A DNA stretch of 64,000 nt from Blastococcus capsensis (GTDB lineage: Bacteria; Actinomycetota; Actinomycetes; Mycobacteriales; Geodermatophilaceae). Positions 41,997-58,667 of this stretch are shown here, in pieces. The first letter of the stretch is position 1, and every line of letters starts with the position of its first letter. The position numbers and the translations under genes were made by a program. The notes beneath the pieces are model-generated. The model searched no databases. It saw only the letters and a program-made list of their open reading frames with translations, and was not told the DNA's origin. The stretch is from assembly GCF_030165005.1 (NCBI RefSeq), contig NZ_JASNNW010000002.1, forward strand, positions 186,001 through 250,000, given 5' to 3'.

Positions 41997-42983
41997 ATGG
42001 CCGCACCGAAGCGACTGCTGGCACTGGTCATGGCCGCGCCCGTCGTCCTCGCCGCCTGCACCACCGACGGTGGTGGCGGCGGCGGGGGCGGCGAGGCCGC
42101 CGGGAACGGCGCGGCGGCCGACGGGGAGCTCGCCTTCTCGGTGATCACCCACGGCTCGGCCGGGGACGCCTTCTGGGACGTCGTGCAGAACGGCGCCGAG
42201 GCGGCCGGGGAGGACCTGGGCATCGACGTCGACTACCAGAGCGACGGCGACCCCCAGCGCCAGGCGCAGCTGATCGACGCGGCGGTGAACTCCGACGTCG
42301 ACGGGATCGTGGTCTCGATGGCCAACCCCGACGCGCTGCAGGAGTCGATCGAGGGCGCGGTCGAGGCCGGTATCCCGGTCGTCACCATCAACTCCGGGGG
42401 TGAGCGCTCGGCGGAGTTCGGCGCCATCGGCCACGTCGGCCAGGACGAGCGGATCGCCGGCCAGGGCGCCGGCCGCCGCCTCGCCGAGGAGGGCGCCACG
42501 AGCGTCCTCTGCGTGATCCACGAGGCCGGCAACGTGGGCCTGGACCAGCGCTGCGGCGGCGCGGAGGAGGGTTTCGGCGGCACGTTCGAGACGCTCCAGG
42601 TCGACATCAACGACCTCACCGGGGCGCAGTCGGCGATCACCTCGCAGCTGCAGAGCAACCCCGGCATCGACGGCGTCCTCACCCTGAACTCGGCCGTGGC
42701 ACCCATCGCGGTCGGGTCGGCCCAGGACGCCGGCTCGGAGGCGCAGATCGCGACGTTCGACCTGAACGAGGACGTCATCAGCGGCATCCAGAGCGGCGAC
42801 ATCGCCTTCGCCGTCGACCAGCAGCAGTACGAGCAGGGCTACCTGCCGGTCGTGATGCTCCAGCTGTACGCCGAGAACCTGAACACCGTCGGCGGCGGCC
42901 AGCCGGTGCTGACCGGCCCCGGCTTCGTGGACGCCGGCAACGTCGACGCGATCGCCGACCTGGCCTCGGCCGGCACGCGCTGA
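41997..42983 (+). CDS. Sugar-binding lipoprotein of an ABC transporter (cassette 2)
   Basis: A periplasmic-binding-protein-like lipoprotein, 328 residues, of the ribose/xylose/inositol type. The signal peptide ends in the lipobox LAACTT, followed by a Gly-rich linker. The peripla_BP_4-like fold begins at [20 protein letters not shown] and includes [19 protein letters not shown] and [24 protein letters not shown] lies 6 nt upstream of the ATG. The stop overlaps an in-frame CTG of the permease (CTGA). The substrate is probably a monosaccharide or polyol; not determinable from sequence. Confidence 0.9.
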
Positions 42984-44038
42984 GCGCCCGGGGGACCGTC
43001 GCGCCGGCGGAGCGCCGGGCCGACGAGCGGCTGGGTGCGGCCGGGCCGCTGCGCCGGCTGCTGGTCAAGCCCGAGCTCGGCGCGCTGATCGGCGCGGTCG
43101 CGGTCTTCACGTTCTTCGCCGTCCAGTCGGAGGTCTTCCGGACGCCGCGGGGCATCGCCAACTGGCTGGACCCGGCGTCGACGCTGGGCATCATGGCCGT
43201 GGCGGTCGCGCTGCTGATGATCGGCGGTCACTTCGACCTCTCCGCCGGTGTCATGACCGGGACGACGGCGCTGACCGTCGGCATCGTCGCCGTGGAGTTC
43301 CGGCAGAACCTGTGGGTCGCGATCGCGGCGGCGCTGGTCCTCGCCCTGGCGATCGGCTTCTGCAACGGCTGGCTGGTCACCCGCACCGGGCTGCCCAGCT
43401 TCATCATCACGCTGGGCACCTTCCTGATGCTGCAGGGCCTGAACCTGGGCCTGACCAAGCTGTTCACCGACACGGTCACGGTCGGCGGCATCGACGAGGT
43501 GCCCGGGTACGCCGCGGCCGAGTGGGTGTTCGCCTCGCGCGTGGAGGTGCTGGGGGCGGAGCTCCGGGTGGCGGTGCTCTGGTGGCTGCTGTTCACGGCC
43601 CTGGGCAGCTGGGTGCTGCTGCGCACCCGGTTCGGCAACTGGGTGTTCGCCACCGGCGGGAACGAGGTCGCCGCCCGGAACGTGGGCGTGCCGGCCCGGC
43701 GGACGACGATCGCGCTGTTCATGACGACGGCGGCCGCGGCCTGGTTCGTCGGGACGACGCTCGCCGTGCGCCTGACCTCGGTGCAGGCGAACACCGGCAT
43801 CGGCCAGGAGCTGATCTACATCGTCGCGGCGGTGATCGGCGGCTGCCTCCTGACCGGCGGTTTCGGATCCGCGGTCGGCGCCTCCCTGGGGGCGCTGATC
43901 TTCGGGATGACCCTGCTGGGCATCCCCTACCTGCGCTGGGACGCCGACTGGTTCTACTTCTTCCTGGGCGCGATGCTGCTGCTGGCCGTGCTGGCCAACC
44001 GGCTGGTGCGGCGCTCCGCCGAGGCGGCCCGGCGATGA
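42980..44038 (+). CDS. Sugar-type ABC transporter permease (cassette 2), apparent CTG start
   Basis: A BPD_transp_2 permease of 352 residues if started at CTG 42980. The first transmembrane helix ([18 protein letters not shown]) and conserved [21 protein letters not shown] require translation well upstream of the first ATG/GTG in frame (43193), and no ATG, GTG or TTG precedes that point in the open frame. CTG at 42980 overlaps the binding-protein stop as CTGA, so reinitiation at a near-cognate codon is the best explanation. Its end overlaps the ATPase ATG (ATGA). Close relative of the permease at 18834. Confidence 0.85.
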
Positions 44039-44856
44039 GTGGAGCGGGCGGAAGGCCGGCGGGTGGGGCGCGGCGCGCGACGCCGCTGCTCGAGCTCCGC
44101 GACGTCGGCAAGGACTACGGCTCGGTCATCGCCCTCGACGGCGTGCGCGCGACCGTGCGCGCGGGGGAGGTCACCTGCGTCCTGGGGGACAACGGCGCCG
44201 GCAAGTCGACCCTGATCAAGATCCTGTCGGGGGTGCACCGGGCCGACCGCGGCGCGGTGCTGCTCGACGGGCGGCCGGCGGAATTCGGCTCCCCGCGGGA
44301 GGCGCTGGACGCCGGCGTCGCGACCGTCTACCAGGACCTGGCGATGATCCCGCTGATGTCGATCTGGCGGAACTTCTTCCTCGGGGCGGAGCCCACCCGG
44401 GGGTGGGGACCGTTCCGCCGGTTCGACGCCGCGCGCGCCAAGGAGGTCACGCGCCGGGAGCTGGCGGCGATGGGGATCGACCTCCGGGACCCCGACCAGC
44501 CGGTGGGCACGCTCTCCGGCGGAGAGCGGCAGTCGGTGGCCATCGCCCGCGCGGTGCACTTCGGTGCGCGCGTGCTGATCCTGGACGAACCGACGTCGGC
44601 GCTGGGGGTCAAGCAGGCGGGTGTGGTGCTCCGCTACGTGGCGCAGGCGCGCGATCGCGGGGTCGGCGTCGTCCTCATCACGCACAACCCGCATCACGCA
44701 CACCCCGTGGGGGACCGTTTCCTGGTGCTGAACCGGGGACGCAGCATGGGGGAGTTCGCCAAGGCCGACATCAGCCGCGAGGAGCTGACCCGGCTGATGG
44801 CCGGCGGCGCCGAGCTCGATGCGCTGAGCCACGAGCTGGAGCGGCCGGGAAGCTGA
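44035..44856 (+). CDS. Sugar-type ABC transporter ATPase (cassette 2)
   Basis: A 273-residue single-domain ATPase with all catalytic motifs: Walker [11 protein letters not shown]-loop [10 protein letters not shown], signature [14 protein letters not shown], Walker [13 protein letters not shown] and switch histidine LITHNP. ATG overlaps the permease stop (ATGA). Its paralogue at 18007 shares overall sequence, including the stretch [13 protein letters not shown], but has lost several of these residues, so this protein is the reference for judging that degeneration. Two copies would assemble on a permease dimer. Confidence 0.92.
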
Positions 44857-47135: not shown

Positions 47136-48005
47136 GTGGCCCTCCCTCTCGATCCCCGCGGCTCGTGGGCTCTGCCTGCGCCCGGCGCGCTGCCCCGCAC
47201 GGCCGACCTCGAGCCACTGGTCACCCGGGTGCTGGCGCCCAATCCGTCACCGATGACCCTCGACGGCACGAACACCTACGTCGTCGGTGCACCGGGCAGC
47301 GGCCAGGCGGTGGTCGTCGATCCGGGCCCCGACGAGCCCGACCACCTGGCGGCCGTCGAGGCGGCGCTGGCCGCCCGCGACGCAGGGTGCGTCGCGGTCC
47401 TGGTCACCCACCACCACGGCGACCACGCCGACGCCGCACTCCCGTGGGGGCACCGGTTCGGGGTGCCCGTCGCCGCCGCCGCGCCGGACGTCGCCGGCTC
47501 GGGTGGGCGCCTCCTGGCGGCCGGTGAGCGGCTGCAGCTGGCCGGCACGCCGATCGACGTCGTCCCGACCCCGGGGCACACCGCCGACCACCTGGCCTTC
47601 CGGCTCGAGTCGGGGGCCGTGCTCGTGGGCGACCACGTGCTGGGCCGCGGCACCTCGGTGGTCACCCACCCCGAGGGCGACGTCGTCGCGTACCTGGAGT
47701 CGCTGCGGCGCGTGCACGCGCTGGGCCCCAGCGCCCTCTACTGCGGCCACGGGCCCGAGCTGACCGAGGACCCGGGCGCGGTGCTCGACTACTACCTCGC
47801 CCACCGGGCTGCCCGCGAGCAGGAGCTGCTCGACGCGCTGGTCGCCGGTGCGGGAACCGTCGACGAGCTGGTCGCCGTCGTCTACGCGGCGGTGCCGCGC
47901 GCCGTCTGGCCGGCGGCGGCGCAGTCGACCCGCGCCACGCTGACCAAGCTGGCCGCCGAGGGGCGGGTCGAGCTCCTCGACGACAGCCGGGTGCGACCGG
48001 TGTGA
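47136..48005 (+). CDS. MBL-fold metallohydrolase (LACTB2-like)
   Basis: A 289-residue metallo-beta-lactamase-fold hydrolase. The motif VTHHHGDHADA supplies metal ligands, with PGHTADHL, VGDHVLG and YCGHGPELTED giving the others. A C-terminal winged-helix-like region (VDELVAVVYAAVPRAVWPAA, then LTKLAAEGRVELL) is typical of LACTB2/RNase-like and thioesterase-like relatives. GTG at 47136 is chosen over 47127 because a -10 hexamer ends 7 nt before it. The stop overlaps the start of an acyl-CoA ligase gene (GTGA), so the two probably act together. Confidence 0.86.
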   Translation: MALPLDPRGSWALPAPGALPRTADLEPLVTRVLAPNPSPMTLDGTNTYVVGAPGSGQAVVVDPGPDEPDHLAAVEAALAARDAGCVAVLVTHHHGDHADAALPWGHRFGVPVAAAAPDVAGSGGRLLAAGERLQLAGTPIDVVPTPGHTADHLAFRLESGAVLVGDHVLGRGTSVVTHPEGDVVAYLESLRRVHALGPSALYCGHGPELTEDPGAVLDYYLAHRAAREQELLDALVAGAGTVDELVAVVYAAVPRAVWPAAAQSTRATLTKLAAEGRVELLDDSRVRPV

Positions 48006-49315
48006 CCGCCGTGCCGCTCATCACCGCCGCCGACAGCGAACGCGACCAGCGGCGCGCCGCCGCCGCGCTGGCCGCCGCGGGCCTGCGGCCCGGGAACCGC
48101 CTGCTGGTCTCCGCGGCCGCGTCGCCCGCAATGCTGGCCGTCGTCCTGGGTGCGCTGCGCACCGGGATCGTGCCGGTGGTGCTGGACCCGGCGCTCCCGG
48201 CCGGCGAGCGCGCGGAGCTGGCCGCCGACGCCGACGCCGCTCTCGACATCGGTGGGGAACCGGCCCGGTTGCTGGGCGGGGCCGAGGCGGAGCTCGCATC
48301 GGTGCCCCTGGCCCGGCCCATGCACTACACGTCGGGCACGACCGGCCGGCGCAAGGGCGTGTGGTCCGGCGTGCTCGCCGAGGGGGACGCCCTCGCCCTG
48401 GCCGGCGAGGAGATCGAGCTGTGGGGCTTCGGGCCGGAGGACCGGCACCTGGTCCTCTCTCCGCTGCACCACAGCGCGCCGCTGCGGTTCGCGGTGCACA
48501 CGCTGCTCGCCGGTGGTGCGGTGTTGCTGCCGGGGCCGTTCGACGTCGCCCGAGCCGCGCAGGTCATCGCCACGCAGCGGCCGACGACGACGTTCTGCGT
48601 GCCCACGCACCTGCAGCGGCTGCTCGCGCGCGACGACGTCGACTGGTCGTCGTTCCGCCGGCTCGTGCACGCGGGCGCCCCCTGTCCCGAGCCGCTCAAG
48701 CGCGCCGTGCTGGCGGCGCTGCCGGAGGGCAGCGTCTGGGAGTTCTACGGCTCCACCGAGGCCCAGTTCACCGTCTGTTCGCCCGGGGACTGGCTGGCGC
48801 ACCCCGGCAGCGTCGGCAGAGCGCGGCCGGGCCGCCGGCTGGAGACCGACGAACGCGGGCAGCTGTGGTGCGCGGTGCCCCGCTGGGCGCGGTTCGAGTA
48901 CTGGCGGGCGCCGGAGAAGACGGCCGCGGCGTGGCGCGGGGACCTGGTCACCGTGGGCGACCTGGGCCGGGTCGACGACGACGGCGTGGTCTGGCTGGAC
49001 GGCCGTCGGGAGGACCTGATCATCTCCGGCGGGGTCAACGTCTACCCCGCGGAGGTGGAGGCGGTCCTCGACGCCCACCCCGGGGTGGTCGAGAGCGCGG
49101 TGTTCGGCGTGCCCGACGCCGACTGGGGGCAGCGGGTGGTCGGCGCCTACGTCGGGGACGCCGACACCCAGGAGCTCGCCGCCTGGGCCCGGGACCGGCT
49201 GGCGCCGGCGAAGCGGCCGAAGTCGCTGCACCCGGTGGCGGAGCTGCCGCGCACCTCGACCGGCAAGGTGCGCCGGCTCGACCTGCCGGGGGTGCTCGGG
49301 CTCAGCGGTGGCTGA
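48002..49315 (+). CDS. AMP-dependent acyl-CoA ligase, short form
   Basis: An ANL-superfamily adenylating enzyme of 437 residues, shorter than usual (500-550) through a reduced N-terminal domain. The ATP-binding motif is HYTSGTTGRRKGVWSG, the A5 region FYGSTEAQF, the hinge region GRREDLIISGGVNVYPAEVE and the catalytic lysine is in PRTSTGKVRR. The substrate is probably a carboxylic acid; unassigned. It starts with a GTGA overlap on the MBL gene and overlaps the GMC oxidoreductase by 8 bp at its end, so the three form one translational unit. Confidence 0.88.
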   Translation: MTAVPLITAADSERDQRRAAAALAAAGLRPGNRLLVSAAASPAMLAVVLGALRTGIVPVVLDPALPAGERAELAADADAALDIGGEPARLLGGAEAELASVPLARPMHYTSGTTGRRKGVWSGVLAEGDALALAGEEIELWGFGPEDRHLVLSPLHHSAPLRFAVHTLLAGGAVLLPGPFDVARAAQVIATQRPTTTFCVPTHLQRLLARDDVDWSSFRRLVHAGAPCPEPLKRAVLAALPEGSVWEFYGSTEAQFTVCSPGDWLAHPGSVGRARPGRRLETDERGQLWCAVPRWARFEYWRAPEKTAAAWRGDLVTVGDLGRVDDDGVVWLDGRREDLIISGGVNVYPAEVEAVLDAHPGVVESAVFGVPDADWGQRVVGAYVGDADTQELAAWARDRLAPAKRPKSLHPVAELPRTSTGKVRRLDLPGVLGLSGG

Positions 49316-50855
49316 GCACTGGGACGTCGTCGTCGTCGGGGCGGGCACCGCGGGCTGCCCGCTGGCGGCACGGCTGGCCGACGCCGGCCGGCGGGTGCTG
49401 CTGCTGGAGGCCGGGGCCGCGCACCCGGCCGGTGAACTGCGGGACGCGAACAGCCTGCGGGCGGCGGTGCCCGGGCACCCCGCCAACTGGGACCTGCGCG
49501 GGCTGCTGCCCGGCGGGCGGGAGATCCGCGTGCCGCGCGGCCGGGTGGTGGGCGGCTCCAGCGCGGTGAACGCCGGCTACTTCGTCCGGCCCAGCCCCGC
49601 GGACGCCGGCGGCTGGGCCGCGGCGGGCAACGACCTGTGGTCCTACGACCGGCTGCTCCCGGCGATGCGGCGGCTGGAGAGCGACCGGGAGTTCGGCGAC
49701 CGTCCCGAGCACGGGGCCGACGGGCCGATGCCGGTGCAGCGGCTCGCGGACGGGCCGCCGCTGGCCGAGGCGTTCGGCCGGGCGACGGCGGAGCTCGGGC
49801 TGCCCGCCGAACCGGACAAGAACGCCGGAGCGGCGCCGGGCTACGGTGCGTTGCCGCGCAACGTCGTCGACGGCCGGCGGATCAGCGCCGCGGACGCCTA
49901 CCTCGCCCCGCGCCGCGGGCATCCCGGGCTGGCGGTGCGCGGGGGCGTGCGAGCCCTGCGCGTCCTGCTCGAATGGGGGCGTGCGGTCGGGGTGGTCACG
50001 ACCGGGGGAGACGTCCGGGCCGACGAGGTGGTGCTCAGCGCCGGGGCGGTCGGCTCGGCCCACCTGCTGATGCTGTCGGGGATCGGACCCGCGGACGTGC
50101 TGCGGGCGGCCGGCATCCCGGTGCGCGTCGATGCGCCGGGGGTGGGGACGAGCGCGTCGGACCACCCCGTGGTCTACCTGCCGTTCCGCCCGGCCGGGAA
50201 CGTGACGGCGGCGCCCGGGCAGGCGCCGCTGCACGGCGTCCTGCACGCGACGTTGGCCGGCGCGGAGACGCCCGGTGACCTGGAGGTGCTGCCGTGGCTG
50301 GCGCCCTTCTCCCAGGTGATGACCGGCCGGGCCGCGCCGCCCGGGGACGTCGTCGAGTTCGGGGTGGCGCTGCTGCGCACCGTGGGCCGGGGGCGTCTGG
50401 TCCTGACCGGCGGCGATCCCGCCCGGCCGCCGGTGATCGAGTACGGGCACCTGGTCGAGACCGTCGACCGGCGGCGGATGCGGGAGGGGGTCCGGCTCGC
50501 CGCCGAGCTGCTGCGCACCCGGGCGCTGGCCGCTGTGGGAGAGCCCGCGGACGACCTCTCCACGGCCGGCGGCAGAGCATTGGACGGCTGGATCCGGGAG
50601 CGGCTGACGACCGCGGTCCACCTCTCCGGCACCGCGCCGATGGGCCCCGACGGCGATCCCCTCTCGGTGGTGGACCAGCGGCTGCGGGTCCGCGGGATCG
50701 AGGGGTTACGGGTGGCGGACACCTCGGTGCTCCCGCGCGTGCCGAGCCGGGGGCCGGCCGCCACCGCGGTGCTCGTCGGCGAACGCGCCGCCGAGCTGAT
50801 GACCGGCTCCGACCGCCCTCGGGTTCAGGCGCCCGGGCGGCCGCCGCTCTCGTAG
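49308..50855 (+). CDS. GMC family oxidoreductase, MftG-like
   Basis: A 515-residue FAD-dependent alcohol dehydrogenase/oxidase. The N-terminal FAD motif is VVVGAGTAGCPLAARLADAG, the GMC signature 1 region VPRGRVVGGSSAVNAGYFVR, signature 2 SAGAVGSAHLLMLSGIGP. The catalytic His lies in TAVHLSGTAPMG. The C-terminal PSRGPAATAVLVGE region and the GYFVR context resemble MftG, the GMC enzyme tied to mycofactocin, from memory of mycobacterial relatives. No mycofactocin biosynthesis genes are in the window. It overlaps the acyl-CoA ligase gene by 8 bp and is convergent with the PucR regulator (30-bp gap). Confidence 0.82.
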   Translation: MAEHWDVVVVGAGTAGCPLAARLADAGRRVLLLEAGAAHPAGELRDANSLRAAVPGHPANWDLRGLLPGGREIRVPRGRVVGGSSAVNAGYFVRPSPADAGGWAAAGNDLWSYDRLLPAMRRLESDREFGDRPEHGADGPMPVQRLADGPPLAEAFGRATAELGLPAEPDKNAGAAPGYGALPRNVVDGRRISAADAYLAPRRGHPGLAVRGGVRALRVLLEWGRAVGVVTTGGDVRADEVVLSAGAVGSAHLLMLSGIGPADVLRAAGIPVRVDAPGVGTSASDHPVVYLPFRPAGNVTAAPGQAPLHGVLHATLAGAETPGDLEVLPWLAPFSQVMTGRAAPPGDVVEFGVALLRTVGRGRLVLTGGDPARPPVIEYGHLVETVDRRRMREGVRLAAELLRTRALAAVGEPADDLSTAGGRALDGWIRERLTTAVHLSGTAPMGPDGDPLSVVDQRLRVRGIEGLRVADTSVLPRVPSRGPAATAVLVGERAAELMTGSDRPRVQAPGRPPLS

Positions 50856-50885
50856 TCGTCCGGCCGCAGGTCACGCATGGCCAGG

Positions 50886-52193
50886 TCACGCACCTGGCGA
50901 CGTCGGCGTCCCGGCCGATCGGCCTCCCTCCGTGGACGGGCCGAGGGTGGAGTCGTGCACGTGCATCGCGACCAGCCCGGCCTGCAGCAGGCCCACACCG
51001 CGGGTCGTGGAGAGCTGGATCCCGGTGAGCTGGGCGATCCGGTCCAGCCGCTTGTCCAGCGTGTTCGGGTGGACGTGCAGCGTCTCGGCCGTCTCCCGCC
51101 GGCCACGGTCGTGCGCCAGCCAGGATCGGGCGGTCTCCAGCAGGTCCGGATGCGCGCGCAGCGGCTGCACCAGGGCGGCGAGCCGCTCCCGAGCCGGGCC
51201 GGGCGCCGCCAGCTGGTGCTCGAGCACCAGGTCGTCCGGCGTGTGGACGCCGGACGGGCGGCCGAGCAGGCGCACGAGATCGAGCAGGCCCCGCGCCTGC
51301 GCCGCCGCGTTCGGCAGGGCCTCCGGCGACGGAGCCGACACCATCACCGCCGTCGGCTCGGCGTCGGCCGCCCGGGCGAGCAGTTCGACCGCCCGGGTCG
51401 TCTCCGCGGACGCCGGTAGCCGGCCCTGGCAGCCGGGGAGCAGGACCAGGCCGCCGGCCGGGATCAGGGAGGCCAGGGTGGTCGCGCGCCCGGGCAGGCG
51501 GTCGATCGCCGCCTGGACCCGGCGCACCTTCCGGCGTCCGGCGACGTCCGGGTCCACGTCCGCGTCCTGCTCGTCGCCGGTCGGTCCGAGGTGCAGCGCC
51601 ACGACCGTGTAGCAGTCGGCGAGCTGGGCGCCCAGACGTTCCGCCAGCTCCACCTGCGGCGTCCCCTCGAGCACGCTGCGGACGAGGTCCCGCCACGCCG
51701 AGCCGTCGTACCGCTCGATCGAGCGGCGCTCCTCCACGTAGGCGTCCGTGACCGCATGGAGCATTGCCTGCAGGTATCGCTGGAGGAACGGTGTGAACGA
51801 GACCACCTCAGACTCCTGTCCCGGCGGCATCTGCTCCCGCAGCATCTGCCACGTGACCTGGTTGCCTATCACGTAGGCCATGAGGACGGCGTCCAGCGGA
51901 ACGCCCTCCTCGGCCCGGCGCGCGGCTCCGGCGCTGGCTGCGGTCAGCTCGCCGTGGGCGGGCAGCCGGTGCTCTCGGCAGCAGCGCACGAACGCCAGCA
52001 CGTTGTCCCGGCAGACCTGTGCGATCTCCCCGTGGAGCTGCTCGTCCGGCAGCCGCCGGTAGAGCGGGATCTCTCGGACGAACTCGGCGACCATGCGGCG
52101 CGCCGACTCGCCCAGCCGCCGGTAGAGCCCCTCCACCAGATGCGGTGCCGGCGGCACGGGGGAGCCGGTGAGAAGGGGTGAGGGGCTGGTCAT
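50886..52193 (-). CDS. PucR/CdaR family transcriptional regulator
   Basis: A 435-residue regulator with an N-terminal helical sensor region (YRRLGESARRMVAEFVREIP, then GVPLDAVLMAYVIGNQVTW), a central GGDEF-like domain and a C-terminal PucR helix-turn-helix (TAETLHVHPNTLDKRLDRIAQLTG region near residues 375-405). The ATG at 52193 has GGAGGAG just upstream. It is divergent from the ABC cassette, and the 164-bp gap contains overlapping palindromes that are likely its operator. Such regulators commonly activate catabolic operons on substrate binding. Confidence 0.9.
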   Translation of the reverse strand: MTSPSPLLTGSPVPPAPHLVEGLYRRLGESARRMVAEFVREIPLYRRLPDEQLHGEIAQVCRDNVLAFVRCCREHRLPAHGELTAASAGAARRAEEGVPLDAVLMAYVIGNQVTWQMLREQMPPGQESEVVSFTPFLQRYLQAMLHAVTDAYVEERRSIERYDGSAWRDLVRSVLEGTPQVELAERLGAQLADCYTVVALHLGPTGDEQDADVDPDVAGRRKVRRVQAAIDRLPGRATTLASLIPAGGLVLLPGCQGRLPASAETTRAVELLARAADAEPTAVMVSAPSPEALPNAAAQARGLLDLVRLLGRPSGVHTPDDLVLEHQLAAPGPARERLAALVQPLRAHPDLLETARSWLAHDRGRRETAETLHVHPNTLDKRLDRIAQLTGIQLSTTRGVGLLQAGLVAMHVHDSTLGPSTEGGRSAGTPTSPGA

Positions 52194-52239
52194 CGGTCTC
52201 CTCCAGGAGCAGGGCGGCGCGCCCGCGGTCACAGCACCG

Positions 52240-52278
52240 GTGTGATCTGTCACACAGATCGGCCGCCAACTGTAGGAC
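52240..52278. promoter_or_regulatory. Overlapping palindromes and promoter between pucR and the ABC operon
   Basis: GTGTGA-TCTG-TCACAC (52240-52255) and GATCTGT-CAC-ACAGATC (52244-52260) are perfect overlapping inverted repeats. For the rightward operon, TAGGAC (52273-52278) lies 17 nt after TCACAC (52250-52255), which would overlap the -35. Leftward, TTGTCC is the reverse complement at 52275-52280. Good candidate binding site for the PucR protein or a CRP-like factor. Confidence 0.5.
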
Positions 52279-52357
52279 AACGCCCTCTGCCACCCGGAGG
52301 GGGTGCTGGACAGACTTCTGCCACCGGTGGCCGCTCGTGCCCCGTCGAGGAGGAAAC

Positions 52358-53554
52358 GTGCCCCGATCCCCACGGTCCCGTCTCGCGGCGGTGTCGGCAG
52401 CCGCGTGCCTGTCGCTCGTCGCCGCCTGCGGTGGGACCGACAGCGAGGCTGCCAGCAGTGGCGGTCCGGTCGACGACGAGCTGGTCAGCGAGGCGCAGGC
52501 CGCCGTCGAGGCGAACCGGCAGGGCACCGACCGTGCCCTCCCCGACAGTGCTCCTGCGCCGCTGCCCGACCAGAACATCTGGGTCATCTCCTGCACGGAG
52601 GCCGGGGAGGGCTGCTCCGCCCCGGCGGCCGGTGCCAAGGCCGCCGGCGAGGCGATCGGCTGGGACGTCACCGTCTTCGACGGCAAGGGCACGCCCGACG
52701 TCTTCGCCCAGGGCATCCGCACCGCCATCGCCGACCAGGCCGACGGGATCATCCTCGACGTCGTCGACTGCGTCGCCGCGAAGGCCCCGTTGGAGGAAGC
52801 CAAGGCCGCCGGGATCAAGATCTTCGCGTTCTACTCGCTCGACTGCGACGACCCGCTGCTGGGCGGCGGAGACCCGCTGTTCGACGCGGAGGTCCTCTAC
52901 GAGGAGGGCCGTACCTACGCCGAGCAGGTGGAGGACGTGTACTCCAAGAGCGTCGCCGACTACGTCATCGCCGAGACCGGGGGCAACGCCAAGATCATCC
53001 AGTTCATCGAGGACGACATCCTCGTCGGCCAGCACCTCTACAAGGGCTTCCAGAAGCACATCGAGCCCTGCACCGGCTGCGAGATCGTCAAGCAGGTCCC
53101 CTTCACGCTGACCGACCTCGTCACCGGTCAGCTGCAGGGCAAGGCCACCGCGGCGCTCACCCAGCACCCCGACGCAAACGTCGTCTACGTCCCCTACGAC
53201 GCGGCGCTGACGCTCGGCATCGCGCAGGCGGTGACGGCCTCCGGCCGGGACGCCGACGTGCTCGTCACCGGCGGCGAAGGGCTCTCGCCGAACATCGGCT
53301 TCGTCCAGGAGGGCAAGGGTCAGGACATGATCGCCGGCGCCCCCGCCCGGTGGGTGGGCTGGGCGGCCATCGACGGCATGAACCGGCTGCTGCAGGGCGA
53401 GGAGCAGGTCGACCCGGGCATCGGGATGCAGACCCTCGACTCCGACTCGGCCCTGCCGACGGAGACGACCTTCTACGACGGCAACGTGGACGAGCAGGGC
53501 AAGCCCAAGCAGGACTACGAGGCCAACTACCGCACGATCTGGGGCCTGTCCTGA
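52358..53554 (+). CDS. Cysteine-rich substrate-binding lipoprotein of an ABC transporter (cassette 3)
   Basis: A 398-residue sugar-type binding lipoprotein. The signal peptide ends with the lipobox LVAACGG. The mature part has six further cysteines (ISCTEAGEGC, VDCVAAKAP, SLDCDDP and EPCTGCEI), unusual for the family and consistent with three disulfides. The binding fold begins NIWVISCTEAGEGCSAPAAG. GTG at 52358 has a strong GAGGAGGAAAC upstream. The stop overlaps a CTG of the ATPase gene. The ligand is unknown; genes for a phosphotriesterase-like hydrolase and an acyl-CoA ligase downstream argue for a lactone, ester or acid rather than a simple sugar. Confidence 0.9.
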   Translation: MPRSPRSRLAAVSAAACLSLVAACGGTDSEAASSGGPVDDELVSEAQAAVEANRQGTDRALPDSAPAPLPDQNIWVISCTEAGEGCSAPAAGAKAAGEAIGWDVTVFDGKGTPDVFAQGIRTAIADQADGIILDVVDCVAAKAPLEEAKAAGIKIFAFYSLDCDDPLLGGGDPLFDAEVLYEEGRTYAEQVEDVYSKSVADYVIAETGGNAKIIQFIEDDILVGQHLYKGFQKHIEPCTGCEIVKQVPFTLTDLVTGQLQGKATAALTQHPDANVVYVPYDAALTLGIAQAVTASGRDADVLVTGGEGLSPNIGFVQEGKGQDMIAGAPARWVGWAAIDGMNRLLQGEEQVDPGIGMQTLDSDSALPTETTFYDGNVDEQGKPKQDYEANYRTIWGLS

Positions 53555-55098
53555 GGAAAGCCACCGGGGGCGCGCGGGACGTCGTCCTGCGCGCCTCCGG
53601 GCTGAGCAAGACCTTCGGTCCCACCACCGTGCTGCGGCAGGCGGGGCTGACGGTCGGGCGAGGTGAGGTGCACGCGCTCCTCGGTGGCAACGGATCGGGC
53701 AAGTCGACCCTCGTGAAGCTGCTCGCCGGGGTCTACCGCGCCGACCCCGGGGGCTCGATCGCGATCGGGGACCTCGAGACGCCCGCTGATTCCTGGTCGT
53801 CGGAGGTGGCCAAGAAGCAGGGGCTGCACTTCGTGCACCAGGACCCGGCCGTCTTCCCGGCCCTCACCGTCGCGGAGAACATCGCGATCGGCCGGGGGTT
53901 CGTCACCGGGCGGTCCGGCCGGATCGACTGGCGGGCGACCCGGCGCCGAACCGCCGAGGTGCTCGACCGGTTCGCCATCCCGGCCACCCCGGACATGCCC
54001 GTCGCCGCCCTGCGCCCGGCCGACCGCGTGATGATCGCCATCGCACGGGCGCTGCAGGACCAGGAGGGCGCCCGGGACGGCGTGCTGGTGCTCGACGAGC
54101 CGACGGCGTCCCTGCCGGTCACCGAGGTGGAGGTGCTGCTCTCGGCGCTGCGCCGGTACGCGGCTGCCGGTCAGACCATCGTGTACGTCAGCCACCGGCT
54201 GGGCGAGGTGCTGGACTTCGCGGATCAGGTCACCGTCCTGCGTGACGGCGACGTCGTCGGCACCCGGCCCGTGCAGGGCATGACCGAGGACGGACTCGTC
54301 GAGCTGATCGTCGGGCGCCCGTTGGACCGGGTGTTCCCGGAACCTCGTACGGCCGAGCGGCGGAACGTGGTGCTGTCGGTGCGCGGCCTGACGACCGGTC
54401 CGCTGCGGGGGGTGGACCTCGACCTGCACCGCGGGGAGGTGCTGGGAGTCGCCGGCCTCCTCGGCTCGGGGCGCACGGAGTTGCTGCGCGCCCTGTTCGG
54501 CGACCTGCGGGTCACGGCCGGGGAGGTGGTGCTGGAGGGGAAGCCGTTGCGCCCCCGTGGACCGCGGCAGGCGATGAAGGCCGGTCTGGCGATGGTGCCG
54601 GAGGACCGCGGCTCGGAAGGACTGTTCCCCGGCATGTCGGTCCGGGAGAACCTCTCGGCCGCGGTCGTCCCGACGTACTGGCGCGGTGGGCGGCTCCGGC
54701 ACCGCAGCGAGCGGGACGACGCCCAGCGGCTCGTGCAGCAGTACGCGGTGAAACCGGCCACCGATCTCCCGCCGGCGGGCACGCTCTCCGGCGGCAACCA
54801 GCAGAAGGTCGTCCTCGGGCGCTGGCTGCGGCGGGAGCCCACGGTCCTGCTCCTCGACGAACCGACCCAGGGCGTCGACGTGAACGCCCGCGTCGACATC
54901 TACGCCCACGTCCGCGCCGCGGTCGAGCGCGGCACGGCGGTCCTGCTGGTGACCTCGGACTTCGAGGAGATGGCCCACGCCGCCGACCGGGTGGTGGTGC
55001 TGCGCGACGGTGTGGTGGCCGCCGAGCTCCACGCCCCGGACATCACCGAGCAGCGCCTGACCGAACTCTCCTACCTGACCGCGGAGGTCCCCGCATGA
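53551..55098 (+). CDS. Two-domain sugar-type ABC ATPase (cassette 3), apparent CTG start
   Basis: An RbsA/MglA-type protein of 515 residues with two nucleotide-binding domains. Domain 1 has Walker A GGNGSGKST, a divergent signature (LRPADRVMIAIARAL) and Walker B VLVLDEPTAS. Domain 2 has the family's usual altered Walker A (GLLGSGRTE), signature LSGGNQQKV and Walker B VLLLDEPTQGVD. No ATG/GTG/TTG lies between the binding-protein stop and the conserved start (VVLRASGLSKTFG), so CTG at 53551, overlapping that stop as CTGA, is the likely start. Same device as at 42980. Its stop overlaps the permease ATG (ATGA). Confidence 0.88.
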   Translation: MRKATGGARDVVLRASGLSKTFGPTTVLRQAGLTVGRGEVHALLGGNGSGKSTLVKLLAGVYRADPGGSIAIGDLETPADSWSSEVAKKQGLHFVHQDPAVFPALTVAENIAIGRGFVTGRSGRIDWRATRRRTAEVLDRFAIPATPDMPVAALRPADRVMIAIARALQDQEGARDGVLVLDEPTASLPVTEVEVLLSALRRYAAAGQTIVYVSHRLGEVLDFADQVTVLRDGDVVGTRPVQGMTEDGLVELIVGRPLDRVFPEPRTAERRNVVLSVRGLTTGPLRGVDLDLHRGEVLGVAGLLGSGRTELLRALFGDLRVTAGEVVLEGKPLRPRGPRQAMKAGLAMVPEDRGSEGLFPGMSVRENLSAAVVPTYWRGGRLRHRSERDDAQRLVQQYAVKPATDLPPAGTLSGGNQQKVVLGRWLRREPTVLLLDEPTQGVDVNARVDIYAHVRAAVERGTAVLLVTSDFEEMAHAADRVVVLRDGVVAAELHAPDITEQRLTELSYLTAEVPA

Positions 55099-56156
55099 CG
55101 ACCACCCCCGCCCGGACGACGACGGACCAGAGCACGCCCGATCCGGCCGGGCCGGTCCGGAACGAGACCCCGGTACAGGGGCCGGCGGCGCCCTGGACTG
55201 CCCGGTGCACGCCGTTCCTCGAGCGCTACGCCCTGCTGATCCTGTTCGTGCTGCTGTGCGTCTTCTTCAGCACCTACGGACCCACCAGCGGGACGTTCCC
55301 GAGCCTGGCCAACGTGCGCAACATCCTCGGCAACGAGGCCGTCATCGCCGTCACCGCGCTGGCGTCCATCATTCCGTTGACCTGCGGGCAGTTCGACCTG
55401 TCGGTCGGGTCGATCGTCGGCCTGTCGTCCATCGTCACAGCCAGCGCGGCCGCCGAGCACGACCTGCCCGTGGCCGCCGCGATCGGCCTCGGCGTCCTCT
55501 CCGGAAGCCTGGTCGGGCTGTTCAACGGCGTGCTGGTGGCTCGGATCGGCGTCAACCCGCTGATCGCCACGCTCGGAACGGCCACGCTGGTGGCGGGGCT
55601 GATCTCGCTCTACACCGCCAACCAGGTGATCAGCATCGGCATCCCGGAGAGCATCACCGCCATCGGGTCGGGCACCTGGCTCGGGCTGCCGCGCACGGTC
55701 TTCTGGCTGGCGCTGGTGGCCGTGGCGGTCTACTACCTGCTGACCCACACGCCGTACGGCCGCTACCTGGCGTCGGTCGGGGTGAGCCCGGGATCGGCCC
55801 GGCTGGTCGGCCTGAGGGTGGACCGGTACGTCCTGTCCAGCTTCGTGCTGTCCGGCGGCCTGGCCGGCATCGCCGGTGTCCTGCTCCTGGCCCGGGCCGG
55901 CACGGCGAACCCGGCCGTGGGCCCCGGTTTCACCCTGGCCGCCCTGTCCGCCGCGTTCCTCGGCGCAACGGCGATCAAGCCGGGCACGTTCAACGTGGTC
56001 GGCACGCTGCTCGGAGTGCTGTTCGTCGCGGTCAGCGTCAACGGCCTGGTCCTGGCCGGAGCGGCCGACTGGGTCCAGCCTACGTTCAACGGCGCGGCGC
56101 TGATCATCGCCGTCGCGCTGTCCACCGCCATCGCCCGGCGACGCGCCGGCACCTGA
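55095..56156 (+). CDS. Sugar-type ABC transporter permease (cassette 3)
   Basis: A 353-residue BPD_transp_2 permease with about 9-10 membrane segments. It includes the family motif IIPLTCGQFDLSVGSIVGLSS, GLFNGVLVARIGVNPLIATLG and the C-terminal SAAFLGATAIKPGTFNVVG. The first 35 residues are a hydrophilic Thr/Pro-rich tail. ATG overlaps the ATPase stop (ATGA), and the hydrolase gene follows 16 nt after its stop with GAGGAG upstream. It differs clearly from the cassette 1 and 2 permeases, which resemble each other. Confidence 0.92.
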   Translation: MTTTPARTTTDQSTPDPAGPVRNETPVQGPAAPWTARCTPFLERYALLILFVLLCVFFSTYGPTSGTFPSLANVRNILGNEAVIAVTALASIIPLTCGQFDLSVGSIVGLSSIVTASAAAEHDLPVAAAIGLGVLSGSLVGLFNGVLVARIGVNPLIATLGTATLVAGLISLYTANQVISIGIPESITAIGSGTWLGLPRTVFWLALVAVAVYYLLTHTPYGRYLASVGVSPGSARLVGLRVDRYVLSSFVLSGGLAGIAGVLLLARAGTANPAVGPGFTLAALSAAFLGATAIKPGTFNVVGTLLGVLFVAVSVNGLVLAGAADWVQPTFNGAALIIAVALSTAIARRRAGT

Positions 56157-56172
56157 CCCCGAGGAGAACCGC

Positions 56173-57159
56173 ATGCCGCAGGTCCAGACAGTGAAGGGTC
56201 CCGTCGACACCGCCGAGCTCGGCCAGACGCTGATGCACGAGCACGTCTTCGTGCTCAACGCCGACGTCCAGCAGAACTACCCCGAGGAGTGGGGCAGCGA
56301 GGACGACCGCGTCGCCGACGCGGTCCAGAAGCTGAACGAGCTGGCCGCCGTCGGCGTCCGCACCATCGCCGACCCGACCGTGATCGGGCTGGGGCGCTAC
56401 ATCCCGCGCATCCAGCGGATCGCCGAGCAGGTCGACCTCAACATCGTCGTGGCGACCGGCTGCTACACCTACGACGACGTCCCCTTCTTCTTCCACTACC
56501 GCGGCCCGGCGCTGAACGCGGCAGTCGGCGCCGAGGTGCCCGACCCGATGGTCGACATGTTCGTGGGCGACATCGAGAACGGCATCGCCGGTACCGGCGT
56601 GCGGGCGGGCTTCCTGAAGTGCGCCATCGACCACCAGGGCATGACCCCGGGCGTCGAGCGGGTGATGCGCGCCGTCGCCAAGGCCCACCGCGCGACGGGC
56701 GCGCCGATCACGGTGCACACGCACCCGACCAGCCAGCAGGGGCTGGCGGTGCAGAAGGTGCTCGGAGACGAGGGCGTCGACCCGCGGCGGGTCGTGCTCG
56801 GGCACAGCGGTGACACCACGGACGTCGACCACCTCAGCGAGCTCGCCGACGCCGGGTTCATCCTCGGGATGGACCGGTTCGGCATCAACCTCGAGACCAC
56901 GTTCGAGGCCCGCGCCGACACCGTGGTCGAGATGTGCCGCCGTGGCTACGCCGAGCAGATGGTGCTCTCGCAGGACGCCTCCTGCTACATCGACTGGCTC
57001 GCCCCGGGCGTCATGGACCTGCTGCCGCAGTGGCACTACACGCACATCCACGAGGAGGTGCTGCCCTACCTGCGCGAGCACGGGGTCACCGACGAGCAGA
57101 TCGAGACGATGCTGGTGGGCAACCCGCGACGGTACTTCGAGAACGTCGGGACCTACTGA
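56173..57159 (+). CDS. Phosphotriesterase-like lactonase/hydrolase
   Basis: A 328-residue amidohydrolase-superfamily TIM barrel. The binuclear metal site is visible: His22 and His24 in LMHEHVFVL, bridging Lys149 in GFLKCAIDHQG, His182 in VHTHP, His211 in LGHSGD and Asp268 in LSQDAS. Most family members hydrolyse lactones; true phosphotriesterase activity is a side reaction. No signal peptide, so it acts on imported substrate. It is directly downstream of the importer genes and overlaps an acyl-CoA ligase gene by one base, suggesting import, ring opening or ester hydrolysis, then CoA activation. Confidence 0.88.
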   Translation: MPQVQTVKGPVDTAELGQTLMHEHVFVLNADVQQNYPEEWGSEDDRVADAVQKLNELAAVGVRTIADPTVIGLGRYIPRIQRIAEQVDLNIVVATGCYTYDDVPFFFHYRGPALNAAVGAEVPDPMVDMFVGDIENGIAGTGVRAGFLKCAIDHQGMTPGVERVMRAVAKAHRATGAPITVHTHPTSQQGLAVQKVLGDEGVDPRRVVLGHSGDTTDVDHLSELADAGFILGMDRFGINLETTFEARADTVVEMCRRGYAEQMVLSQDASCYIDWLAPGVMDLLPQWHYTHIHEEVLPYLREHGVTDEQIETMLVGNPRRYFENVGTY

Positions 57160-58667
57160 TGGTGCTGCGGCCCTTCGACGAGTCCGGCGTCGAGCGCGAC
57201 GCGGACGGCATCAAGCGCTACGTCGACCTCCCGGACTCCGTGGTGGCCATGCTGCGGGCCTCGGTGGACCGGGACCCCGGTGGCGAGGCCGTCGTGGAGG
57301 TCGACGGGCCGCGGCTGACCTACCAGGAGCTCTGGGCGGCGTCGGCCCGCGTGGCCGGCGGGCTGCGCGAGGCCGGCGTCGGCCGCGGTGACCGGGTGGC
57401 GATCCGGCTGGGCAACGGCGTCGACTGGGTGCTCGGCTTCCTCGGCACCCTGATGGCCGGCGGGGTCGCCGTCCCGGTGAACACCCGCTTCACCGACGAC
57501 GAGGCCCGGTACGTCGTCGAGGACAGCGGATCCCGGCTGGTGCTGGCCCCGGGAGAGCCGCTGCCCCAGGGGGAGCCGTTCACGGTCGACGGCCTGCGGC
57601 GCCACGACCTCGCGGCGATCTTCTACACCTCGGGGACGACCGGGTTCCCCAAGGGGGCGATGACCAGCCACGAGAACTTCCTGACCAACATCGAGAACGC
57701 CCGCCGGGTGGTGGGACTGCCGCGAGAAGATCCCACCCTGCGCAACCTGATCTCGGTGCCGCTGTTCCACGTGACCGGTTGCAACAGCCAGTTGCTGCCC
57801 ACCCTGCAGTGCGGTGCGGCGGCGGTGATCATGCCGGCGTTCGAGGTGGGCAGGTTCCTGCGGGTCATCCCCGAGGAACGGATCGCCGTCGTCACGACCG
57901 TGCCGGCGATCTTCTGGCTGGCCATCAGCCAGGAGGAGTTCGCCCGGGTCGACGTCAGCGGTGTCCGGTACGCGACCTACGGCGGCGCACCCATCGCGCC
58001 GGACCTGGTGCAGGCGATCAAGCGCAGCTTCCCGTCGGCCCGGGTGGGCAACGGCTTCGGGTTGTCGGAGACGTCGTCGATCTCCACCTTCCTGCCGCAC
58101 GAGTACGCGGACACGCACGCCGACTCCGTCGGCTTTCCTGCGCCGGTGGTCGATCTCGAGCTGGCCGACATCGACCCGGAGACGGGTGTCGGGGAGCTGC
58201 TGATCCGTGGCGCCCAGGTCGTGCAGGGCTACTGGAACAAGCCAGAGGCGACGGCGGACGCCTTCACCGACGGCTGGCTGCACAGCGGCGACCTGGCCCG
58301 CATCGACGACGACGGCTTCACCTACATCGTCGACCGGGCCAAGGACATGATCAACCGTGGCGGTGAGAACGTCTACAGCGTCGAGGTGGAGAACGCACTG
58401 GCCGCGGCGCCCGGGGTCTTCGAGGTGGCAGTCGTCGGGGTGCCGGACCAGATGATGGGGGAGAAGGTCGGCGCCGTGGTGGTACCCCAGCCCGGGGTCG
58501 AGTTCGACGTCGACGAATTCCTCGCCTTCGTGCGCACGCGGCTGGCCGACTTCAAGGTGCCCCAGTACGTCGCGGTGCGGCCCGCCGCGCTGCCTCGCAA
58601 CCCGGGGGGCAAGGTGCTCAAGCCGGTCCTGCGCAGGGAGACCGAGTGGGGTTCCCCGCTGCGTTGA
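57159..58667 (+). CDS. Acyl-CoA synthetase (AMP-forming)
   Basis: A 502-residue ANL-superfamily ligase with all core motifs: FYTSGTTGFPKGA for ATP binding, GFGLSETSS, the hinge region DRAKDMINRGGENVYSVEVE and the catalytic lysine in PRNPGGKVLKP. Expected to convert a carboxylic acid, probably released by the upstream hydrolase, to its CoA thioester. ATG overlaps the hydrolase stop (TGATG). It is the last gene of the operon that begins with the binding protein, and a 12-bp terminator stem follows. Confidence 0.92.
   Translation: MVLRPFDESGVERDADGIKRYVDLPDSVVAMLRASVDRDPGGEAVVEVDGPRLTYQELWAASARVAGGLREAGVGRGDRVAIRLGNGVDWVLGFLGTLMAGGVAVPVNTRFTDDEARYVVEDSGSRLVLAPGEPLPQGEPFTVDGLRRHDLAAIFYTSGTTGFPKGAMTSHENFLTNIENARRVVGLPREDPTLRNLISVPLFHVTGCNSQLLPTLQCGAAAVIMPAFEVGRFLRVIPEERIAVVTTVPAIFWLAISQEEFARVDVSGVRYATYGGAPIAPDLVQAIKRSFPSARVGNGFGLSETSSISTFLPHEYADTHADSVGFPAPVVDLELADIDPETGVGELLIRGAQVVQGYWNKPEATADAFTDGWLHSGDLARIDDDGFTYIVDRAKDMINRGGENVYSVEVENALAAAPGVFEVAVVGVPDQMMGEKVGAVVVPQPGVEFDVDEFLAFVRTRLADFKVPQYVAVRPAALPRNPGGKVLKPVLRRETEWGSPLR

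Follow-up and report, generated by a model that had tools for sequence, protein, structure and literature searches.

Do the nine genes at positions 47,136 to 58,667 of a 64,000-nucleotide stretch of Blastococcus capsensis DNA encode one catabolic pathway? The stretch as a whole, referred to as the window, covers positions 186,001 to 250,000 of contig C27 in a genome of 4.39 Mb (G000). The original prediction assumed a joint pathway from the two gene units that flank a PucR-type regulator. The first unit comprises an MBL-fold hydrolase (MBL), an acyl-CoA ligase (ACSL1) and a GMC-family enzyme (GMC), while the second comprises an ABC importer, a phosphotriesterase-like lactonase (PLL; labelled PTE in the following) and another acyl-CoA ligase (ACSL2). 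All nine open reading frames (ORFs) were verified at the predicted coordinates, with codon use of coding type and matches to the predicted families. They look like layers of differing history and not like a single island: the locus is probably best explained as a core of MBL, ACSL1 and MftG, the latter being the GMC enzyme, with an accessory module for lactone utilisation in a variable slot behind it. At the level of sequence this reading is carried by gene content, synteny and layering, the family membership of MftG, the metal ligands kept in PTE, a palindrome that the genome contains in exact form only once and, in the related genome G201, a decayed permease.

The core, layer 1, occurs widely and in conserved synteny in the family Geodermatophilaceae. 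In 56 family genomes we compared one slot locus each, picked by GMC, PTE or ACSL1 matches, the slot being the variable place behind MBL-ACSL1-GMC. The recurring order is M23-MBL-ACSL1-GMC-[slot]-small ORF-cat-GT, although the downstream genes were visible in fewer than all loci; M23, cat, GT and PBP (below) are our own labels, with family matches for M23 alone, all of them below cut-off. GMC was present in 55/56 loci, a count that is biased since most loci were picked by GMC matches, MBL in 54/56 and ACSL1 in 51/56. MBL was missed only in L158 and L172, both of which stop at contig ends. ACSL1 was detected at 1e-100 in 64 of the 96 family genomes and in 0/17 of genus g3. The slot itself was found empty or holding PBP, PTE alone, ACSL2 alone, PTE-ACSL2 or the full set. 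MBL as a pathway-specific hydrolase and GMC as a pathway-specific alcohol oxidase were rejected: many family genomes carry both genes at this position, and GMC is MftG. MBL and ACSL1 persist in G185 (L162), where mftC and MftG are missing and a PBP gene occupies the slot.

The GMC enzyme of the window reached 424.7 bits against TIGR03970 (cut-off 387.45) and passes the NCBIfam cut-off, in agreement with its predicted MftG-like character. According to sections of PMC11778925, mftG candidates frequently lie within 5 kb of mft genes, a linkage termed a hallmark there. Such linkage was not found in G000, where mftC (651.6 bits) is located on contig C14 together with MftB, MftD, MftF and an NDMA-dependent alcohol dehydrogenase, all above cut-off, and MftG on C27. 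A single other GMC gene was detected in G000 at 1e-60, on contig C7. The assignment to the MftG family by sequence stands despite the missing cluster linkage.

Across the 96 family genomes MftG was above cut-off in 81 and mftC in 88. Both occurred in 80 genomes, mftC only in eight, MftG only in one and neither in seven (Fisher p 4e-6); for genomes at least 90% complete the corresponding numbers were 75, 6, 0 and 4 (p 1e-4), both p values being descriptive because the genomes are mutually related. Of the genomes without mftC, MftG was present in one of eight (G200, 88% complete) and in 0/4 of those at least 90% complete. Among the eight genomes with mftC only, G169 contains a partial MftG match (profile positions 149-486) and a GMC gene in the slot, and G158, G162 and G165 contain full-length matches below cut-off, as does G174 (313.8 bits), which lacks mftC. 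Where mftG and mftC share a contig in relatives, they are about 150-400 kb apart. The window enzyme is, as judged by sequence, an MftG that tracks mftC though outside the mft cluster. It resembles the mycofactocin dehydrogenase MftG of Mycolicibacterium smegmatis, as far as PMC11778925 describes it, in TIGR03970 membership and co-occurrence with mftC, and differs in lying on another contig than mftC, beside MBL and ACSL1. MftG would re-oxidise mycofactocinol produced by mycofactocin-dependent dehydrogenases generally and would not be an enzyme specific to the lactone route.

Layer 2, the PTE-ACSL2 pair, has a much narrower distribution. PTE at 84% identity or more was detected in 17/96 family genomes (in G198 as a partial match), and in each of these it lies downstream of MftG in the same orientation. 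In 14 of them none of the other sought genes lies in between (81-503 bp), the 503 bp interval being that of G201, which contains a permease remnant; in G204 PTE follows PBP, and in G000 and G167 it follows the PucR-importer cassette. ACSL2 accompanies PTE in 12 of the 16 slot relatives fetched. On a tree built from 39 PTEs, 2 changes sufficed for the slot label, compared with a mean of 12.9 for shuffled labels, and none of 500 shuffles was that low; 6% of the bootstrap trees needed a single change. The history of the slot PTEs fits one old arrival followed by losses.

Compared with solved structures, PTE scored 436 bits against 4if2 ("Phosphotriesterase homology protein"), 240 against 2vc5, which we take to be SsoPox, and 234 against 4rdy, a chain named parathion hydrolase; chains named phosphotriesterase scored at most 172. 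The residues H22, H24, K149, H182, H211 and D268, presumably the metal ligands, align to identical residues of 2vc5. By these scores PTE appears closer to PLLs than to true phosphotriesterases.

Beyond the slot, an ACSL2-like ligase (1e-40) was found in the same locus in 8/22 PTE loci, with gaps of 6-1155 bp; one of the eight, a Tsukamurella plasmid, also carries acyl-CoA dehydrogenases, MaoC and FabG. A phosphotriesterase-like lactonase and an acyl-CoA ligase in one operon are likewise the architecture of the qsd operon of Rhodococcus erythropolis, for which PMC6262395 describes the lactonase QsdA, the acyl-CoA ligase QsdC and the upstream TetR regulator QsdR. In the window the two genes overlap by 1 bp; the likeness to qsd is one of gene architecture. 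Unlike the qsd operon as described there, the window has a PucR-type regulator, a dedicated ABC importer and a place behind mftG. The second unit looks like a catabolic module, as predicted. The accompanying statement that no named pathway has this gene set was too strong for the lactonase-ligase part, which matches qsd in architecture.

Layer 3 consists of PucR, the substrate-binding protein (SBP), the ATPase and the permease. SBP at 84% identity or more occurs in two of the 96 family genomes (G000, G167), and nine more genomes contain relatives at 35-39%. The whole cassette was found elsewhere in G167 and in L047 of Geodermatophilus sp. DF01-2, the nearest named relative locus (contig search, two loci found). 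A phylum-wide SBP search at 1e-90 returned G000 alone (1/396), a weak negative since at most four candidates were scored per listed genome and the known carrier G167 was missed. In G201 (L151) pieces of the permease lie between MftG and PTE; blastn aligned them in three blocks (36-321 bases), one of which continues into PTE. Based on this remnant and on the grouping of the G201 PTE with those of the window and of G223, the cassette was once present in G201 and then lost, so that the importer cassette is being lost. Third-position identities against G167, determined as a test of cassette transfer, were raised for SBP and the ABC ATPase and not for PucR, and led nowhere.

The importer shares the Peripla_BP_4, double ATPase and BPD_transp_2 domains with ribose-type (CUT2) importers and differs from them by a conserved cysteine in SBP, a replaced arginine, and the lactonase and ligase as neighbours. 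A single-sequence comparison of SBP with the PDB gave weak sugar-binding matches only. In the alignment to 2ioy the aspartate of the ribose-type Asp-Arg pair, which we take to contact the ligand, is kept and the arginine is replaced by cysteine; over 14 relatives C138 is invariant and C163 nearly so. As originally proposed, the compound imported may well be a non-sugar. Among the loci listed, several related cassettes lie near apparently catabolic genes, as labelled from short translations without family search. Nocardioides albidus (L048) contains SBP, ABC ATPase and permease at 65-70% and no PTE match; apparent deacetylase-type and urease-type genes follow this importer (L048:13773-17366, labels from short translations).

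The intergenic stretch between PucR and SBP contains the palindrome GTGTGA-N4-TCACAC in three of three loci (window, L047, L149) and matches the 4.39 Mb genome exactly at a single place. With up to two mismatches allowed, it is also the sole match in the window of 64 kb, where shuffled sequences give 1.9; the case for the palindrome is therefore made by its conservation and genome-wide uniqueness and not by the window count. In PTE-bearing relatives without the importer a TGTGA-N6-TCACA-like element (at least 8/10) was detected in 14/15 loci, the exception being G201, although the 15 relatives are not independent. The element begins 42-80 bp upstream of the estimated PTE start; 0 to 4 of 300 shuffles per locus (14 loci) and 1.2% of random 120-bp pieces reached the same score. 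Upstream of MBL the best such site reached 7/10 over 54 loci. The element resembles the CRP consensus. The layers seem to be separately controlled, since the element precedes PTE or the second unit and none comparable precedes MBL. We did not adopt a joint transcript of MftG and PTE for the relatives, as the element before PTE suggests that PTE has a promoter of its own; the MftG-PTE gap measures 74-172 bp in 13 loci (for L151 the permease remnant was called as the upstream gene, and for L158 no upstream gene was called).

Table 1. Predicted genes and candidate operator of the locus in the window.
Feature	Position	Strand	Basis
MBL-fold hydrolase with BLACT_WH domain (MBL); layer 1	47136..48005	+	Lactamase_B and BLACT_WH matches
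ACSL1, short acyl-CoA ligase, 437 aa, AMP-binding; layer 1	48002..49315	+	family match
MftG, GMC-family mycofactocin dehydrogenase	49308..50855	+	TIGR03970 above cut-off; co-occurrence with mftC
PucR-type regulator, divergent from importer	50886..52193	-	HTH_30 58.8 bits; relatives in L047, L149
GTGTGA-N4-TCACAC palindrome, candidate operator	52240..52255	.	also in L047, L149; sole exact genome match
Cys-containing SBP, Peripla_BP_4	52358..53554	+	family match
Ribose-type double ABC ATPase, start uncertain	53539..55098	+	family match
BPD_transp_2 permease	55095..56156	+	family match
Phosphotriesterase-like lactonase (PTE), by sequence	56173..57159	+	PF02126 320.3 bits; nearest structure 4if2; metal ligands kept
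ACSL2, acyl-CoA ligase, 502 aa, AMP-binding, partner of the lactonase	57159..58667	+	family match

Gene overlaps had been predicted throughout both units (Table 1). Besides that of PTE and ACSL2, those of MBL and ACSL1 (4 bp), ACSL1 and GMC (8 bp) and ABC ATPase and permease (4 bp) are real, whereas permease and PTE are separated by 16 bp. Where the ATPase frame seems to start there is neither ATG nor GTG, and TTG 53539 or CTG 53551 would be required, in contrast to the L047 counterpart, which has a GTG 18 bp past SBP. The PucR-type regulator also gave a GGDEF_2 match below cut-off (23.0 bits). Scans for promoters and terminators yielded no promoter-like and one terminator-like sequence, compared with 0.1 and 1.4 in shuffles. 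Positions 41997-44856, upstream of the locus, encode another ABC importer of ribose type, with a rhizopine-like SBP below cut-off, a permease and an ATPase; it is shared by several loci of the family.

A single dedicated pathway of both units under PucR seems quite unlikely. The constant position of PTE behind MftG on one strand (17/17) would suit it, as would the full set in G167 and L047; in the gene-order comparison proposed with the original prediction the two halves do occur together elsewhere, in G167 and DF01-2, contrary to the first refuting condition named with that prediction. However, PTE is present in only 17/96 genomes against 81/96 for MftG, and since most MftG genomes lack layer 2, a joint pathway is not established. 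Furthermore, MftG tracks mycofactocin, the exact palindrome is unique in the genome and placed before the second unit, the element scores before MBL stay below those before PTE in 14/15 relatives, and PTE-ligase pairs elsewhere occur without first-unit genes nearby. A more serious possibility, which overlaps with the core-plus-module reading and which we hold tentatively, is that the slot is a mere insertion-tolerant place and that the module is unrelated to the core and may break down quorum-signal or xenobiotic lactones. The varied slot contents, from empty to full set, agree with this, whereas the clustering of slot PTEs in the tree suits long residence; this clustering is in turn weakened, as near-copies make any label cluster and so few bootstrap trees needed a single change. 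Partly compatible with the core-plus-module reading, and rather doubtful, is a route in which mftG, having left the mycofactocin cluster, anchors interchangeable slot modules in Geodermatophilaceae: mycofactocin-dependent alcohol oxidation and a Baeyer-Villiger reaction would yield a lactone for PLL and ACSL2 with a PucR-controlled importer, and MftG would feed respiration. Its starting point is the L047 slot. Between MftG and PucR this slot contains an alcohol dehydrogenase of the NDMA-dependent type (598.6 bits against TIGR03989, cut-off 440), along with a putative Baeyer-Villiger monooxygenase (BVMO) and an alpha/beta hydrolase; TetR-like, AAA and VWA-like genes are further slot contents. 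All labels but that of the dehydrogenase are our own or based on below-cut-off matches. Relatives of the L047 BVMO, TetR-like gene and hydrolase are present in L149, and in L137 a gene 31% identical to the BVMO, a ligase and PTE are consecutive. Both BVMO and dehydrogenase, however, are missing from the window slot, the match behind the BVMO label reaches 212.7 of 1100 bits, far below the NCBIfam cut-off, and no report treating mycofactocin and a lactonase together was found in the open-licence full-text literature. The AAA (MoxR-like) and VWA-like genes of L047 follow the dehydrogenase (L047:5631-7549), and an AAA-like gene also adjoins the NDMA-dependent alcohol dehydrogenase near the mft cluster (L046:1746-3635), both observed from short translations.

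Several observations weigh against the core-plus-module reading itself. The adjacency of MftG and PTE has limited weight and alone is no proof of shared function, because synteny extends over the entire neighbourhood from M23 through GT. PTE and ACSL2 are not an obligate pair: G140, G190, G217 and G204 (4/16) have PTE without ACSL2, G206 carries ACSL2 without PTE, and the ACSL2-like ligase is absent from 14/22 non-slot PTE loci, several of them on short contigs. The non-slot family PTEs of L163 and L133 nest among the slot PTEs. PLLs are promiscuous, and PTE could instead act as an esterase or phosphotriesterase. The related cassettes of L030 and L032 lack obvious catabolic neighbours. Finally, three further places in the genome fit the palindrome with one mismatch, and the palindrome is based on three related sequences, its tie to PucR being positional.

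For the core-plus-module reading, which we nevertheless prefer, the following scenario is proposed. PucR would sense the substrate or product and act at the palindrome, and the binding protein and ABC subunits would import a non-sugar lactone, ester or hydroxy-acid-like compound. PLL, as suggested by its sequence, may hydrolyse the lactone to the hydroxy acid, which ACSL2 would convert to its CoA thioester for beta-oxidation. On this view the locus would carry a lactone module of the qsd kind, equipped with an importer and a regulator of its own, and simple induction tests could reveal its ligand. Its mftG, remote from the mft genes yet following mftC across the family, offers a case in which mycofactocin recycling in the absence of cluster linkage could be tested.

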